Source of the DNA: Phyllobacterium sp. 628
GTDB lineage: Bacteria; Pseudomonadota; Alphaproteobacteria; Rhizobiales; Rhizobiaceae
NCBI RefSeq assembly: GCF_014189505.1
Contig: NZ_CP050301.1
Span: 379,501 to 443,500, forward strand
Direction of reading: 5' to 3'
DNA: 64,000 bases
The position numbers and the translations under genes are program-made. This document shows, piece by piece, positions 39,812 through 54,515 of the stretch. How positions within the stretch are numbered: position 1 is the first letter of the stretch; each line of letters begins with the position of its first letter. A model generated the notes under the pieces. It did no database searches and was not told the DNA's origin. It saw only the letters and a program-made list of their open reading frames with translations.

Positions 39812-39922
39812 ATCAATCCGCGACGAGTTCTTACTCCGAGCAGCCGACCGGGACCCCGCAAGGGTCTGAACGATCCCGGAGGTCAACACCCGACAGCGCG
39901 ATGCGCCCTCGGGTGCATTTTT
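39812..39922 (+). ncRNA. structured small RNA upstream of ffh (ffh-type alphaproteobacterial RNA)
   Basis: Bases 39846-39884 fold as nested helices (GACC/GGTC, GGGA/TCCC, CCC/GGG), followed by a terminator (CACCCGA 39887-39893 with TCGGGTG 39909-39915, then TTTTT 39918-39922). The element lies about 90 bases before ffh. A conserved RNA upstream of ffh is known in alphaproteobacteria; I assign this by position and structure only. It lacks the GGAAGGAAGCAGCC-type core, so it is not 4.5S RNA. The rest of the 39382-39776 gap shows nothing I can name. Confidence 0.5.
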
Positions 39923-40011
39923 GCTTTGAGCCGCATTTTGGCTATGGGCTTTGGCGCGGAGGATGCTTACCTCTCGGGGAAACGGTTCCCCGGAAGGATA
40001 AAGGAAAACGC

Positions 40012-48381: not shown

Positions 48382-50819
48382 CCCTGCCCAGTCACGCCCA
48401 GATCGTCGTCATCGGCGGCGGCATCATCGGTTGTTCAACGGCATACCATCTCGCCAAGGATCACAAGGCGGACGTGGTTCTGCTCGAACAGGGGCAGCTT
48501 ACATCAGGGTCGACATGGCACGCCGCTGGTCTGGTCGGGCAGTTGCGCTCATCAGCCTCCATCACCCGCGTCCTCAAATATTCCGTTGATCTCTACAAAC
48601 GTCTTGATGCGGAAACCGGACTTGCCACAGGCTGGAAAATGACCGGGTGTCTGCGCCTGGCAACCAATCAGGATCGCTGGACCGAGTTTCGGCGTCTGGC
48701 AACCACCGCAGGCAGCTTTGGCATGGAAATGCATTTGCTTTCCCCGCAGGAGGTCAAGGCCATGTGGCCGTTGATGCGGGTCGATGATCTGGTTGGCGCC
48801 AGCTGGCTGCCGACAGATGGACAAGCCAGTCCTTCGGATATCACCCAGTCGCTGGCGCGCGGTGCCCGCATGAACGGTGCCAAACTGATTGAGAATATCC
48901 GCGTAACCGGTTTCGAGATGGATGGTGACCGGATTATCAAAGTGAAGACCGATAAGGGCAATATTGCCTGCGAGAAGGTCGTCAATTGCGCCGGACAGTG
49001 GGCCCGGCAGGTCGGCGATATGGCAGGAATCAATGTCCCGTTACAGCCGGTCAAGCATCAATATATCATTACCGAAAAGATCGACGGCCTGTCCTCCGAT
49101 GCCCCCACTATCCGCGACCCGGACCGGCGTACCTATTTCAAGGAGGAAGTCGGCGGGCTGGTTATGGGCGGATATGAACCCAACCCGCAGGGCTGGGTCA
49201 CCGGTGATGTCCCCGAGAATTGGCAGTTCCGCCTGTTCGATGATGATTTTGATCATTTCGAGCAGCACATGGTCCAGGCTATCGAGCGTATTCCCGCGCT
49301 TGAAACCGTGGGCGTCAAGCAGATGATCAATGGCCCGGAAAGCTTCACGCCCGATGGCAATTTCATCCTCGGTCTGGCGCCGGAATGCTCCAACATGTTT
49401 GTCGGCGCCGGGTTCAATGCCTTTGGCATCGCATCCGGCGGCGGCGCCGGCTGGGTGCTGGCGCAGTGGGTCATCGATGGCGAGGCACCGCTTGATCTCT
49501 GGTCGGTCGATATCCGCCGTTTCTCCAATCTGCACCGCGACCGAAACTGGGTGAACGAGCGCACGCTTGAAGCCTATGGCAAGCATTACACCATCGGCTT
49601 CCCCCATGAGGAATATACATCCGGCCGCCCGGCCATCGTTTCACCGCTCTATGACAGGTTGAAGCAACACCGCGCCGTCTTTGGCTCGAAACTTGGCTGG
49701 GAACGCCCCAACTGGTTTGCACCTGAAGGGACGGAGCCGGTCGATATCTATTCCATGGGCCGTCAAAACTGGTTTGATCAGGTCGGCAAGGAACATGCAT
49801 TGGTGCGCGAAAAGGTCGGAATTTTCGACCAGTCGTCCTTTGCCAAATACGAGCTGACGGGCAAGGATGCACAGCAGGTGCTCGACTATATCTGCGCCAA
49901 CGATGTGTCGAAACCCGTGGGGCGGCTGACTTATACCCAGCTTCTCAATACCCGCGGCGGAATTGAATGCGATTTGACCGTTGCTCGGCTTGCTGAAGAC
50001 AGATTCTATATCGTCACCGGCACCGGCTTCCGCACCCACGATTTCAGCTGGATCAAAGATCATATAGGTGCAGGTCTCGACGCGACGCTGACTGATATTA
50101 CCGAGGACTATGGAACCCTGTCACTTATGGGGCCGAAAGCGCGCGATGTGCTTGCCAAGGTTACAGATACGGACGTCAGCAACGGTGCATTTCCGTTCGG
50201 CCATATCAGGGAGCTTACAATTGCCGGGACGACCGTACGTGCCCTGCGCATCACCTATGTCGGTGAGCTTGGCTGGGAACTGCACATCCCGATTGCTGCG
50301 ACCGGCGCTGTATTCGATGCCCTGATGCTGGCGGGCGAACCCTTGGGAATTCAGCCCGTCGGCTACCGGGCGCTGGAATCACTGCGGCTGGAGAAAGGCT
50401 ATCGTGCCTGGGGTTCGGATATCACGCCGAACGACTCGCCCTTTGAAGCCGGACTGGGCTGGGCAGTTAAATTGCGCAGGAAAACAGCCTTTCTCGGACG
50501 CAAAGCCAGTGAGGCCATTCACGCCGCCTCGCTGAAGAAACGCTTTGCCGGGTTCACGGTCACCGACAAAGATGTTGTGCTGCTCGGCCGCGAAACGATC
50601 CTGCGCAATGGCAAGCCTGTCGGCTATCTCACCAGTGGTGGGTTTGGCTATACGGTTGGCCAGCCCATCGGCTACGGTTATGTGCGCAACTCCGAAGGGG
50701 TTACGGATGATTTTCTTGCCGGCGGAACCTATGAATTGATCGTCGCCAATGACCGTTTCACGGCCGAGATTCACCTTGATCCGCTTTATGATCCCCAGAA
50801 TGCCAAAGTGAAAGCCTAG
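48378..50819 (+). CDS. FAD-dependent dimethylglycine/sarcosine dehydrogenase-like protein with GcvT domain
   Basis: An 813-residue two-domain enzyme. Residues about 8-370 are a DAO-type flavoprotein (VVIGGGIIGCSTAYHLAKDH; STWHAAGLVGQLR with the His that often carries covalent FAD; GAGFNAFGIASGGGAGW). The C-terminal half (from about 430) is a GcvT-like folate-binding aminomethyltransferase domain (GIFDQSSFAKYELTGKDAQ, YVGELGWELHIP, LRLEKGYRAWGSDI). The family demethylates dimethylglycine or sarcosine and passes the one-carbon unit to tetrahydrofolate. Exact substrate unknown. Co-transcribed with the kinase. Confidence 0.88.
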   Translation: MTLPSHAQIVVIGGGIIGCSTAYHLAKDHKADVVLLEQGQLTSGSTWHAAGLVGQLRSSASITRVLKYSVDLYKRLDAETGLATGWKMTGCLRLATNQDRWTEFRRLATTAGSFGMEMHLLSPQEVKAMWPLMRVDDLVGASWLPTDGQASPSDITQSLARGARMNGAKLIENIRVTGFEMDGDRIIKVKTDKGNIACEKVVNCAGQWARQVGDMAGINVPLQPVKHQYIITEKIDGLSSDAPTIRDPDRRTYFKEEVGGLVMGGYEPNPQGWVTGDVPENWQFRLFDDDFDHFEQHMVQAIERIPALETVGVKQMINGPESFTPDGNFILGLAPECSNMFVGAGFNAFGIASGGGAGWVLAQWVIDGEAPLDLWSVDIRRFSNLHRDRNWVNERTLEAYGKHYTIGFPHEEYTSGRPAIVSPLYDRLKQHRAVFGSKLGWERPNWFAPEGTEPVDIYSMGRQNWFDQVGKEHALVREKVGIFDQSSFAKYELTGKDAQQVLDYICANDVSKPVGRLTYTQLLNTRGGIECDLTVARLAEDRFYIVTGTGFRTHDFSWIKDHIGAGLDATLTDITEDYGTLSLMGPKARDVLAKVTDTDVSNGAFPFGHIRELTIAGTTVRALRITYVGELGWELHIPIAATGAVFDALMLAGEPLGIQPVGYRALESLRLEKGYRAWGSDITPNDSPFEAGLGWAVKLRRKTAFLGRKASEAIHAASLKKRFAGFTVTDKDVVLLGRETILRNGKPVGYLTSGGFGYTVGQPIGYGYVRNSEGVTDDFLAGGTYELIVANDRFTAEIHLDPLYDPQNAKVKA

Positions 50820-50919
50820 CAACTTGGTTCCCGCTTCAGGTGCAGTACCAAAACGCCAGCAATTCTGGCCCCTGCGGCATAATTTCCGGGGGGTTGACTT
50901 TCCCTCTGGAGGGGACCAA

Positions 50920-51039
50920 ATGGCGGCACGTGACCGGCCAAACCCCGGCCCCGTATCACCAAACCGGAGTCTATCTCTTATGCCCAACGACGACAGTAGT
51001 AGTCGATTGTTTGCGCCGTCATTGGCGATCGTGGCCTGA
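50920..51039 (+). CDS. proline-rich leader peptide upstream of mgtE (candidate)
   Basis: A 39-codon ORF with a strong ribosome site, GGAGG 7 nt before ATG. It encodes prolines at positions 7, 9, 11 and 14 (DRPNPGPVSP), then an acidic-serine patch (NDDSSS), and ends 63 bases before mgtE. Proline-rich or acidic leader peptides (MgtL and relatives) sense low Mg2+ by ribosome destabilisation upstream of Mg2+ transporter genes in enterobacteria. An internal ATG at 50980 gives a 19-codon alternative. No independent homology can be claimed. Confidence 0.5.
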   Translation: MAARDRPNPGPVSPNRSLSLMPNDDSSSRLFAPSLAIVA

Positions 51040-51052
51040 TTCTTAAGAGATC

Positions 51053-51099
51053 AGCTCGCCCCGATCAGCCATGACGGCGGATCGACGGAAAGGCGAGCT
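51053..51099 (+). promoter_or_regulatory. hairpin sequestering the mgtE ribosome-binding site
   Basis: AGCTCGCC (51053-51060) pairs perfectly with GGCGAGCT (51092-51099), and CGATC (51062-51066) with GATCG (51080-51084). The right arm and adjoining GGAAA form the mgtE ribosome site just before the ATG at 51103. Translation of mgtE should therefore depend on opening of this stem. Confidence 0.55.
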
Positions 51100-51102
51100 A
51101 AA

Positions 51103-52488
51103 ATGAACGACCTTCGCTTGAACCAGGATGCAGATGTTGCCGAACTGGCATCGGCATCCAACGTGGCAGAACAGCTTGCAGCCATGCAGGCTGCGGACGC
51201 TGTTGAACTGCTCAATGAACTTGATATCGAGGATGCTGTCGGCATTCTCGCTGAAATGCCGCGCGATCACGCGGTTTTGATCCTCGATCAGCCGGAATTG
51301 CACTCGTCGGCAGATATCATTGCCGAGCTTCCCGCCGCTGTTGCGCGCGAGTTGCTTGACGGCATGTCCGCCGACCGCGTCACTGACATTTTCCAGCAGT
51401 TCGACGATCCCACACGCATTCGCCTTGCCTCGAGCCTTGGCCAGGAAACCAAGGCGGCACTGCGTAAACTTCTGCACTACCCGCCCCATACGGCAGGCAG
51501 TCTGATGACGACCGAATTTGTCAGCGTCCCTGCCGACTGGAATGTGGCAGCCACGCTGCAATATATTCGTGAGGTCGAGCGCTCCCGCGAAACCATCTAC
51601 GCAATCTATGTCACCGACCCACAGACAAAAAGCCTGCTCAGGGCTGTCGCACTGCGCCGCCTGATCACCAGCGAGCCTGACGATTCCATCATGAGTGTCG
51701 GCCGCGATGTGGCACCGGTAACGGTCAGACCATTGACCGACCAGGAGGATGTGGCCCGGCTCTTCCGCAAGCATGACCTGCTGGCCGTTCCCGTGGTCAA
51801 TGACGACAATCACATTATCGGTATTGTTACCGTCGATGATGTGATCGACGCCATGACGCAGGAAATGACCGAAGACACGCTGAAGTTCGGCGGCATGGAG
51901 GCGCTCAACAAGCCCTATATGCAAATCGGCTTCGTGCAGATGTTGCGCAAGCGGGCAGGCTGGCTCGGTGTGCTCTTTCTGAGCGAAATGCTGACGGCCA
52001 GCGCCATGCAATATTTCGAGGGCGAGCTGGAAAAGGCCGTCGTCCTCACCCTGTTCATTCCTTTGATCATGAGCTCCGGCGGCAATTCCGGTTCGCAGGC
52101 CACATCGCTCCTCATCCGCGCGCTGGCGCTGCAGGAATTGCGGCTGAAGGATTGGTGGCGGGTTGCCCTGCGCGAACTGCCGACTGGCATGGTGCTCGGC
52201 TCTTTCCTCGGTCTGATCGGCGTCATCCGTATCAGCACCTGGCAGATGGTCGGTCTGTATGATTACGGCCCGCACTGGATGCTGATTGCCGCAACCGTAG
52301 GTGCTGCGCTGGTCGGTATTGTGACCTTCGGCTCCCTTGTCGGGTCCATGCTGCCATTTCTTCTGCAAAAGATCGGCTTCGATCCGGCCAGTGCATCAGC
52401 GCCTTTTGTGGCCACGCTGGTCGATGTGACCGGGCTGGTGATCTATTTCTCGATTGCCCTGGTTTTCCTCTCAGGCACGCTTCTTTAG
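51103..52488 (+). CDS. mgtE: magnesium transporter MgtE
   Basis: A 461-residue Mg2+ channel. The N domain has repeats such as AVELLNELDIEDAVGILAEMPRDHA; two CBS domains follow (MTTEFVSVPADWNVAATLQYIR; VGRDVAPVTVRPLTDQEDVARLF), then the connecting helix and five membrane segments with SSGGNSGSQATSLLIRALA lining the pore. The soluble domains gate the pore by Mg2+. A leader ORF and a hairpin over the ribosome site lie upstream. Confidence 0.95.
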   Translation: MNDLRLNQDADVAELASASNVAEQLAAMQAADAVELLNELDIEDAVGILAEMPRDHAVLILDQPELHSSADIIAELPAAVARELLDGMSADRVTDIFQQFDDPTRIRLASSLGQETKAALRKLLHYPPHTAGSLMTTEFVSVPADWNVAATLQYIREVERSRETIYAIYVTDPQTKSLLRAVALRRLITSEPDDSIMSVGRDVAPVTVRPLTDQEDVARLFRKHDLLAVPVVNDDNHIIGIVTVDDVIDAMTQEMTEDTLKFGGMEALNKPYMQIGFVQMLRKRAGWLGVLFLSEMLTASAMQYFEGELEKAVVLTLFIPLIMSSGGNSGSQATSLLIRALALQELRLKDWWRVALRELPTGMVLGSFLGLIGVIRISTWQMVGLYDYGPHWMLIAATVGAALVGIVTFGSLVGSMLPFLLQKIGFDPASASAPFVATLVDVTGLVIYFSIALVFLSGTLL

Positions 52489-52522: not shown

Positions 52523-52685
52523 CATCAGATCCTGAGAGTCTATATAGAAGCATAGCTGGAATGCAGACAACGGCCAGCCAAAAGCGCATGCCCCCTTTCG
52601 CATTTGCGAAAAAACATGTAAGGAGCGCGCAAATGCAAAGCGGCGCCAGCATGTGTGCGTCCACAATCCTCCAAAAGAGAAACTC

Positions 52686-54515
52686 ATGAAACTGCGCAAC
52701 ATCGCGATCATCGCACACGTTGACCATGGCAAAACCACGCTCGTTGACGAACTTTTGAAACAGTCCGGCAATTTCCGTGACAACCAGCGCGTTGCCGAAC
52801 GCATGATGGATTCGAACGACATCGAAAAGGAACGCGGGATCACGATTCTCGCCAAAGCCACTTCGGTTGTTTGGAAAGATGCCCGCATCAACATCGTTGA
52901 TACACCCGGCCACGCGGATTTTGGTGGTGAAGTCGAACGTATTCTCAGCATGGTGGACGGCGCTATCGTTCTCGTCGATGCTGCGGAAGGCCCGATGCCG
53001 CAGACGAAGTTTGTTGTTGGCAAGGCGCTGAAGGTTGGCCTGCGTCCAATCGTTGCCATCAACAAGATCGATCGTCCCGACGCACGCCACGAAGAAGTTG
53101 TGAATGAGGTTTTCGATCTCTTCGCCGCTCTGGATGCAACCGACGAACAGCTCGACTTCCCGATCCTCTATGGTTCAGGCCGCAATGGCTGGATGGCGCG
53201 CAACCCGGAAGGTCCACAGGATCAGGGTCTGTCTGCCCTGTTCGATATGGTTCTTGAGCATGTACCAGCGCCGACCGTTGGCGAAGGCGCTTTCAAGATG
53301 ATCGGCACAATCCTTGAAGCCGACCCGTTCCTCGGCCGTATCATCACCGGCCGCATCCATTCCGGCACAGTCAAGTCGAACCAGCAGGTCAAGGTTCTGC
53401 ATGGCGACGGCACCCAGCTGGAAACCGGCCGTATCTCCAAGATCCTTGCATTCCGCGGTCTCGAGCGTCAGCCGATCGATGAAGCCCATGCGGGCGACAT
53501 TGTTGCCATCGCCGGTCTGCAGAAGGGCACAGTTGCTGACACGTTCTGCGCAACCGAAGTGACCGAGCCGTTGCATGCCCAGCCAATTGATCCGCCAACA
53601 GTCACCATGTCCTTCATCGTCAACGATTCTCCGCTTGCCGGCACCGAAGGCGACAAGGTAACCAGCCGCGTCATTCGTGATCGTCTGCTTAAGGAAGCCG
53701 AAGGCAACGTTGCACTGAAGGTCGAAGAATCCGGCGACAAGGATTCGTTCTTCGTGTCCGGCCGCGGCGAATTGCAACTGGCCGTTCTCATCGAGAACAT
53801 GCGCCGTGAAGGCTTTGAACTTGGCGTATCGCGTCCGCGCGTCGTCATGGAAAAAGATGAAGACGGCAACCTGCTTGAGCCAATCGAAGAAGTCCTCATC
53901 GACGTTGATGAAGAATATTCAGGCACGGTCGTGCAGAAGATGTCCGAGCGCAAGGCCGAAATGGTCGAACTGCGCCCATCCGGCGGCAATCGCGTCCGCA
54001 TGGTATTTTACGCGCCAACACGCGGTCTTATCGGCTATCAGTCGGAACTTCTGACAGACACACGCGGCACGGCCATCATGAACCGTCTGTTCCGTGCTTA
54101 CGAGCCCTTCAAGGGTGAAATCGCTGGCCGCAACAACGGCGTTCTGATCTCCAACGATCAGGGCGAGTCGGTTGCCTTCGCCATGTGGAACCTTGAAGAT
54201 CGCGGCCCAATGGTCATCGAAGCTGGCACCAAGGTTTATGCCGGTATGATCATCGGCATCCACTCGCGTGATAACGATCTGGAAGTGAACGTGCTCAAGG
54301 GCAAGAAGCTGACCAACATCCGCGCCGCCGGCAAGGATGAAGCCGTCAAGCTGACACCGCCGATCCGTATGACGCTGGAACGCGCCCTATCCTGGATTCA
54401 GGACGACGAACTGGTTGAAGTGACACCGAAGTCCATTCGTCTGCGCAAGCTTTATCTTGATCCGAACGAACGCAAGCGTTTCGAGAAGAGCAGCAAGACA
54501 GCGGGCGCTGCGTAA
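52686..54515 (+). CDS. typA: translational GTPase TypA/BipA
   Basis: A 609-residue ribosome-binding GTPase of stress and cold adaptation. G motifs AHVDHGKTTLVDELL, ERGITILAKATS, DTPGHADFGGEVER and NKIDRPDAR; then EF-G-like domains (GRGELQLAVLIENMRREGFELGVSRP) and the BipA-specific C-terminus. ATG 52686 starts the conserved MKLRNIAIIAHVDHG. Confidence 0.97.
   Translation: MKLRNIAIIAHVDHGKTTLVDELLKQSGNFRDNQRVAERMMDSNDIEKERGITILAKATSVVWKDARINIVDTPGHADFGGEVERILSMVDGAIVLVDAAEGPMPQTKFVVGKALKVGLRPIVAINKIDRPDARHEEVVNEVFDLFAALDATDEQLDFPILYGSGRNGWMARNPEGPQDQGLSALFDMVLEHVPAPTVGEGAFKMIGTILEADPFLGRIITGRIHSGTVKSNQQVKVLHGDGTQLETGRISKILAFRGLERQPIDEAHAGDIVAIAGLQKGTVADTFCATEVTEPLHAQPIDPPTVTMSFIVNDSPLAGTEGDKVTSRVIRDRLLKEAEGNVALKVEESGDKDSFFVSGRGELQLAVLIENMRREGFELGVSRPRVVMEKDEDGNLLEPIEEVLIDVDEEYSGTVVQKMSERKAEMVELRPSGGNRVRMVFYAPTRGLIGYQSELLTDTRGTAIMNRLFRAYEPFKGEIAGRNNGVLISNDQGESVAFAMWNLEDRGPMVIEAGTKVYAGMIIGIHSRDNDLEVNVLKGKKLTNIRAAGKDEAVKLTPPIRMTLERALSWIQDDELVEVTPKSIRLRKLYLDPNERKRFEKSSKTAGAA

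Follow-up and report, generated by a model that had tools for sequence, protein, structure and literature searches.

In the Salmonella mgtQ–mgtB system, the Asp2 and Glu5 codons of the short upstream ORF (uORF) mgtQ hinder its translation, and the ribosome site of mgtB is released by an alternative stem; the same source places an mgtQ-like ORF in Brucella melitensis before mgtB, a gene other than mgtE (PMC8092293). For mgtL, the leader of mgtA, excerpts describe complete translation at high Mg2+ as the OFF state, Rho-dependent termination and a peptide motif EPDP (PMC11282234). The M-box precedes mgtE in some other bacteria (PMC9276622, in part), and SRC-65-1, an mgtE motif of Thioalkalivibrio, is a published riboswitch candidate reported only from that gammaproteobacterial genus (PMC11109978). 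Control of Mg2+ uptake in Alphaproteobacteria is little known, and Mg2+ transport in rhizobia is likewise described as little known (PMC5010178, excerpt).

Here we examine the region ahead of mgtE in a 64,000-nucleotide stretch of Phyllobacterium sp. 628 DNA (the window, numbered from its first letter). The original prediction saw a candidate Mg2+ sensor in an upstream ORF and a masked ribosome site distinct from the M-box; these elements stand, but the proline-rich half of the ORF and the ribosome site assigned to it do not, and a competing helix had been missed. An mgtE leader that is probably Mg2+-responsive is supported by its conservation, by covariation and by its recurrence before CorA in addition to MgtE. 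We regard the existence of a widespread cis-regulatory leader as virtually certain, and the best reading of the analysis is a new leader class that would work much like Salmonella mgtQ. The probability that mgtE translation is tied, through the leader, to what becomes of the ribosome on a 19-codon ORF, in answer to Mg2+, is put at roughly 0.6.

Like mgtQ–mgtB, the locus has a short uORF with early acidic codons, a Mg2+ transporter gene downstream and a stem masking the ribosome site of that gene (PMC8092293, extracts); in the window the uORF carries a Shine-Dalgarno-like CCGGAG, and its translation is predicted. The competing stem that frees the ribosome site in the translational control of mgtB may also have a counterpart here. 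According to the same extracts, mgtQ has 8 codons and lies between mgtC and mgtB within an operon, whereas the present ORF lies in the 5′ leader of mgtE and encodes a peptide of the type MPSDSxSR. Unlike mgtQ, the leader has a longer antisequestor, formed between the ORF itself and the interior of the hairpin; it also stands before several kinds of target gene and occurs in other lineages. An untranslated mgtQ means OFF, whereas the free RNA is predicted to be open here, and no sequence relation between the two was noticed. With mgtL, as excerpted, the leader shares an acidic, proline-containing peptide ahead of a Mg2+ importer, and we propose the same logic of complete translation as the OFF state, although mgtL has the different motif EPDP and acts through Rho-dependent termination (PMC11282234). 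The leader described here would act through a masked ribosome site, which might favour Rho as well. Its acidic content is lower than that of MgtL EPDP or of mgtQ Asp2/Glu5 in most members, 81 of 105 leaders having a single acidic residue. SRC-65-1 likewise belongs to an mgtE leader and forms a large imperfect stem whose base holds both the ribosome site and the start codon; going by its published description it may be related to the present leader (PMC11109978, in part), raising the question of whether the Thioalkalivibrio riboswitch candidate is a uORF leader.

The earlier remark that no M-box is recognisable was borne out, as no Rfam M-box match was found in the window, and the M-box and other Rfam families were rejected as the identity of the leader for want of a matching hit. 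At gathering thresholds the whole window matched only the ffh small RNA family (39872-39923, plus strand, 70.7 bits), and 50800-51250 searched at E≤10, gave four matches, each on the minus strand and far below gathering, none of them to the M-box. No report of this leader was found in the literature searched, in which most subscription papers and preprints were not covered.

Table 1 Features of the mgtE locus in the window.
Feature	Position	Strand	Details
Inferred promoter	50894-50922	+	−35 TTGACT 50894-50899; 17-nt spacer; −10 CAAATG 50917-50922
Shine-Dalgarno-like CCGGAG of conserved leader ORF	50964-50969	+	sequence, alignment
Conserved leader ORF, 19 codons, MPNDDSSSRLFAPSLAIVA, stop TGA	50980-51039	+	N-terminus in 20/20 genus genomes
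GTCGATT in leader ORF, partner of 51080-51086 in antisequestor	51002-51008	+	minimum-energy fold
GCCGTCATTGGC in leader ORF, antisequestor 5′ strand	51015-51026	+	10/10 pairs compensatory, 56 representatives, 0/300 shuffles
AGCTCGCC, anti-Shine-Dalgarno arm of sequestor	51053-51060	+	8/8 pairs with compensatory changes, 0/300 shuffles
GCCATGACGGC, sequestor interior and antisequestor 3′ strand	51068-51078	+	covariation
GATCGAC, sequestor inner-stem arm (its GATCG) or partner of 51002-51008	51080-51086	+	folds
GGCGAGCT, ribosome-site arm masked by 51053-51060	51092-51099	+	fold, covariation
mgtE, 461 aa, Mg2+ transporter/channel	51103-52488	+	Pfam MgtE_N, CBS, MgtE domains

The conserved upstream ORF and its putative promoter

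The 39-codon in-frame ORF first proposed as the leader is present at 50920-51039, ending 63 bases ahead of the mgtE ATG at 51103, and the ORF list of the window also gives it with an earlier TTG start. It is not a conserved leader in that form: of the 20 genomes of the genus, only 7 have its first ATG in the reading frame of the conserved leader, and one genome runs into a stop after 5 codons. The four prolines claimed at residues 7-14 do occur in the window, but in the window alone among the 20 genomes, the other six in-frame genomes having none. The motif CCAAATG around the ATG is nonetheless kept in 20/20 genomes (the window's included), and the supposedly excellent ribosome site, GGAGGGG, turned out to be the spacer of an inferred promoter (Table 1) from which RNA would start at about 50929.

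The promoter-like pattern TTGAC-N17-CAnnnn recurs across families. In 141 of 147 elements, a set that includes related sequences, the leader ATG is preceded by TTGAC at a distance of at most 110 nt, in most cases −80 to −90, compared with 12.3 expected from shuffled letters; TTGAC lies within the set range in 39 of 51 cluster representatives, and among these 39 the first two −10 positions are C in 31 and A in 35. Given this conservation, the first ATG of the 39-codon ORF is placed inside the inferred −10 and upstream of the inferred RNA start. The overlap with the promoter, together with the in-frame count of 7/20, led us to reject the 39-codon proline-rich ORF as the functional leader, its proline-rich half being, in the genomes aligned, peculiar to one species and overlapping the putative promoter. 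A MerR-type operator in the promoter spacer, suggested by a dyad, was also considered and dropped because conservation of the spacer does not extend from one family to another. Congeners have a small hairpin corresponding to about 50928-50960 of the window, just past the inferred RNA start and upstream of the ribosome site of the leader, whose arms vary yet stay complementary (ACGCAG/CTGCGT and variants, by eye). The gene following mgtE (52653-54515, plus strand) we take to encode a TypA/BipA-like ribosome-associated GTPase.

What is conserved is the last 19 codons of the longer ORF, from the ATG at 50980. The peptide begins MP(N/S)DDS or MPSDS..SR, with MPNDDS in the window, where D4 and D5 are acidic, and mostly M-P-S-D-S-x-S-R followed by variable residues in relatives. 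A set of 105 unique leaders was parsed from loci that the MgtE search and the model searches had returned. Pro2 is present in 92 of them and is written with four synonymous codons (CCC 44, CCA 37, CCT 10, CCG 1). Acidic residues precede the Arg in 105/105 leaders (one in 81, two in 23 and three in 1), a count to be read knowing that the parsing favoured acidic residues, and Glu replaces Asp in one leader. The conserved peptide, whose one proline is Pro2 and whose acidic residue falls at positions 4-5, resembles the acidic mgtQ type more than it does a proline-rich leader. In 31/105 leaders, as parsed in frame, the distance between start and Arg departs from the commonest by whole codons, and the only strong match left unparsed (L071, 77.8 bits) belongs to a genus with two other, TTG-start elements. 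Beyond the Arg some congeners, L007 and L008 among them, do not hold the frame, suggesting that the end of the peptide is unimportant.

The core AGTNNNAGTCGA is also kept at the nucleotide level, with Arg as CGA in 103/105 and Ser as AGT in 99/105 leaders, and this near-invariance indicates an additional constraint on nucleotides or codons; the shape of the RNA or the identity of the codons may even outweigh the peptide. Alternatively, the slow run AGT-NNN-AGT-CGA could be a pause site, making the leader a translation-speed sensor of another signal, such as tRNA supply, antibiotics or translation stress, with Mg2+ genes regulated because faltering translation can mean Mg2+ shortage. The codons in question make up 7.9% of Ser (AGT) and 4.2% of Arg (CGA) codons in the window's ORFs, AGT falls to 2.8% of Ser in GC-rich loci, and there is a precedent in the S. 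meliloti uORF that responds to tetracycline (PMC12218461, in part). However, CGA is no rare codon in those loci, where it makes up 12.3% of Arg (mechanical ORFs), Pro2 and the acidic residue are kept beside the AGT and CGA codons, and MgtE dominates the targets, and we consider a translation-speed sensor unlikely.

Two probably competing helices at the mgtE ribosome site

The hairpin claimed to pair with the mgtE ribosome site is real and covaries, with AGCTCGCC as one arm of this sequestor and GGCGAGCT as the other. By itself, 51044-51114 folds at −24.4 kcal/mol (z −3.06; 3/200 shuffles as good). Alignment scoring used 56 cluster representatives chosen without regard to the hairpin, with columns set by the pairing in the window. 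Across them the sequestor was 85.1% paired (shuffles 76.7) with 45 compensatory cells (shuffles 8.8) and 0/300 shuffles as good, and the proposed check for compensatory stem changes was answered by such changes in 8/8 pairs.

A second helix, absent from the original prediction, is formed by the 3′ half of the leader ORF and the interior of the hairpin. The leader RNA from 50980 to 51114 folds into a rod of −51.1 kcal/mol (z −3.77; 1/200 shuffles as good), in which GTCGATT and GCCGTCATTGGC pair with GCCATGACGGC and GATCGAC, leaving the ribosome-site arm partly free. The compensatory pairs of this antisequestor were first spotted by eye in two lineages; in the 56 representatives it was 77.9% paired (shuffles 68.6) with 65 compensatory cells (shuffles 26.9) and 0/300 shuffles as good. 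Since the shuffling ignores relatedness, the shuffle counts for both helices are not probabilities, and the test of the antisequestor is not independent, this helix having come to light in the very sequences scored and its columns being set by the window. Sliding the partners by 1-3 columns produced a sharp drop for both helices. Compensatory changes were also found in 6/7 sequestor and 9/11 antisequestor pairs in 31 hand-picked rows, taken from 52 references of which 21 were dropped by eye, some for mis-detected stems and some without firm reason. RNAalifold, run on two alignments, reported the sequestor and not the antisequestor, which is as expected for conflicting helices yet lends the latter no independent support.

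The antisequestor pairs with the hairpin interior rather than mainly with the anti-ribosome-site arm, and the two helices cannot nest together; as both covary, this suggests a switch. Cognate leader:hairpin duplexes were more stable than non-cognate ones (−32.9 versus −26.3 kcal/mol; 51 representatives, p 1.3e-6; 13 of 163 elements without a detected stem left out), and the cognate duplex beat 95% of shuffles in 34/51 representatives but not in 17/51. Nested folds of 47 of the 51 representatives, those with a stem of at least 6 pairs, gave a mean predicted openness of the ribosome-site arm of 0.42 for the free RNA, 0.43 with an early ribosome and 0.08 with a ribosome at the stop codon; the corresponding values for the window were 0.39, 0.38 and 0.02. 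Opening exceeded 0.2 in 34/47, the other 13/47 did not open to this extent and two representatives (L082 and L094) went the opposite way. We hold a two-state fold coupled to the ORF to be rather probable.

Because the folding program ignores pseudoknots, both helices might coexist. The leader:hairpin pairing would then be a pseudoknot that strengthens the mask, and translation of the leader would open mgtE, reversing the sign of the response. Read from the sequence, the segment that pairs with the leader falls within the loop of the masking hairpin or close to it, and the linker lengths do not clearly forbid the two helices together, but nested folding favours the open rod (50980-51114) over the mask alone (51044-51114) by the energies given above, and in many members the pairing, by reading, takes both inner-stem arms, making a pseudoknot of this kind very improbable.

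The structure could also be a direct Mg2+-binding RNA switch, in which Mg2+ itself tips the equilibrium between the two helices, with the ORF a bystander or relevant only to the path of folding. Such a switch would be consistent with the extensive covarying structure, the nucleotide-level conservation of AGTNNNAGTCGA and the publication of the Thioalkalivibrio mgtE leader as a riboswitch candidate (PMC11109978, in part). It sits poorly with the retention of a start codon, of Pro2 through four synonymous codons and of indels of codon length, and the alignments, read by eye, showed no conserved unpaired aptamer-like core and the Rfam search no match; we judge it improbable.

Coupling to the ribosome on the 19-codon ORF remains the preferred reading, for which we infer translation of the ORF, Mg2+ as the signal, the sign of the response and sensing through destabilisation of the ribosome. 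The mgtE mRNA would start at the conserved promoter and carry the leader with its ORF, of which codons from about 12 onward, aided by GTCGATT (codons 8-10), would pair with the interior of the masking hairpin; in relatives with a shorter peptide the pairing stretch would begin one codon earlier. With ample Mg2+ the ORF would be completed, the ribosome would cover the pairing stretch, the masking hairpin would form and mgtE would be off. At low Mg2+ a destabilised ribosome would be lost or halted at the acidic, proline-containing N-terminus MPNDDS, and the stretch would be free, the long antisequestor rod would form, the mgtE ribosome site would open and the transporter would be made. That the leader answers to Mg2+ is likely; that it does so through ribosome loss at the acidic, proline-bearing start is an even bet.

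Occurrence across genomes and target genes

The element recurs across Hyphomicrobiales and beyond. The genome draws overlap and include the window's own genome. Model R1 matched in 69/394 family genomes and 42/297 order genomes; 7 of the 69 (L131, L133, L135-L139) and 2 of the 42 (L140, L141) had no leader on reading and were dropped, while L132 (24.1 bits) and L134 (22.8 bits) were kept because a leader ORF precedes MgtE and CorA there. Model R2 matched in 75/397 genomes of the order at E≤1e-4 (matches read in part), in 8/385 of the class and in 17/200 of the phylum; among the order and phylum matches read, L340-L342 and L346 (phylum search) had no clear element. The 8 class genomes were the window's own, one of the order and six weak matches outside it, all below 39 bits, of which L268-L272 look like chance and L267, with a readable TTG-start ORF, may be real. 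In the phylum search, leaders reading MSSDSRSR or MPSDSKSR precede MgtE in two genomes that lie outside the class. Scanning named genomes for the pattern gave at least 119 stretches, and among the 80 matches listed were Rhizobium, Brucella, Methylobacterium, Ancylobacter, Bosea, Microvirga, Devosia, Sphingomonas, Phenylobacterium and others, as well as one titled as a Lysobacteraceae MAG.

With a one-sequence DNA query the order yielded two short matches besides the window, a true relative in G059 and probably a chance match in G079; weak matches in the window's own genome (up to 20.5 bits) are probably chance, one of them (L274) having an ORF that begins MPSDN and no masking stem seen. The plasmid collection gave no match.

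The leader is closely tied to one MgtE clade, found in symbionts, plant-associated and other soil bacteria. In 115 phylum genomes (own included), MgtE was found at E≤1e-90 in 11, with the leader directly upstream in 10 of these, and 21/23 close MgtE relatives have it (absent from L021 and L022). A second, distant mgtE of the genus (paralog at G000:C1:2370420-2371556), whose product is about 30% identical, had no leader in the 4 loci tested (L142-L145). In G256, a 1.5 Mb genome, no leader ORF or hairpin was found on reading L352:1250-1520; MgtE and a promoter-like TTGACTTTA are retained there, as if the leader had been lost by reduction.

Across all loci examined, 212 unique elements with the AGTCGA core were collected, 161 of them before MgtE. 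Smaller numbers precede a small, apparently one-transmembrane (TM, by eye) protein (17), DUF1003 (6), an ABC permease (2), an OprB-like porin (2) or a small protein with the motif PVTGRL.CRW (2); 2 are linked to CorA, one directly and one behind the small protein; a further 17 stay unclassified, of which at least one is spurious, and 3 are truncated. These are counts of sequences and not of independent events. CorA also lies behind the leader, by similarity, in L339, and in L337 and L338 the leader precedes a PF04120 low-affinity iron permease. A link to Mg2+ is at most conjectural for the OprB porin, the ABC permease, the PF04120 permease and the small proteins.

We tentatively propose, at slightly under even odds, a portable leader module in which ribosome loss on an acidic, proline-containing nascent peptide opens a masked site and controls a Mg2+ regulon (mgtE, corA, DUF1003, small membrane protein, ABC permease and porin) in Alphaproteobacteria and at least one lineage outside the class. 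If so, sensing Mg2+ through the nascent chain would be a strategy of bacteria in general, and proteins of unknown function could be assigned to Mg2+ physiology by the leader in front of them. Confirmation of Mg2+ as the signal would extend the Mg2+ sensing by ribosome stability of enterobacteria to an unrelated peptide and other genes, and would give DUF1003 and the small membrane proteins a likely role.

DUF1003 lies directly behind the leader in L075, L116, L178, L191, L302 and L307, which suggests a role in Mg2+ physiology. The one-TM small protein follows the leader in several families (L079, L087, L121, L170, L181 and others); neither of the two examples searched matched Pfam, and in a Microvirga locus (L181) the protein lies ahead of CorA. 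It is possibly a partner or regulator of Mg2+ transport. In one genome (G166; L129 and L336) the leader stands before two OprB-like porins.
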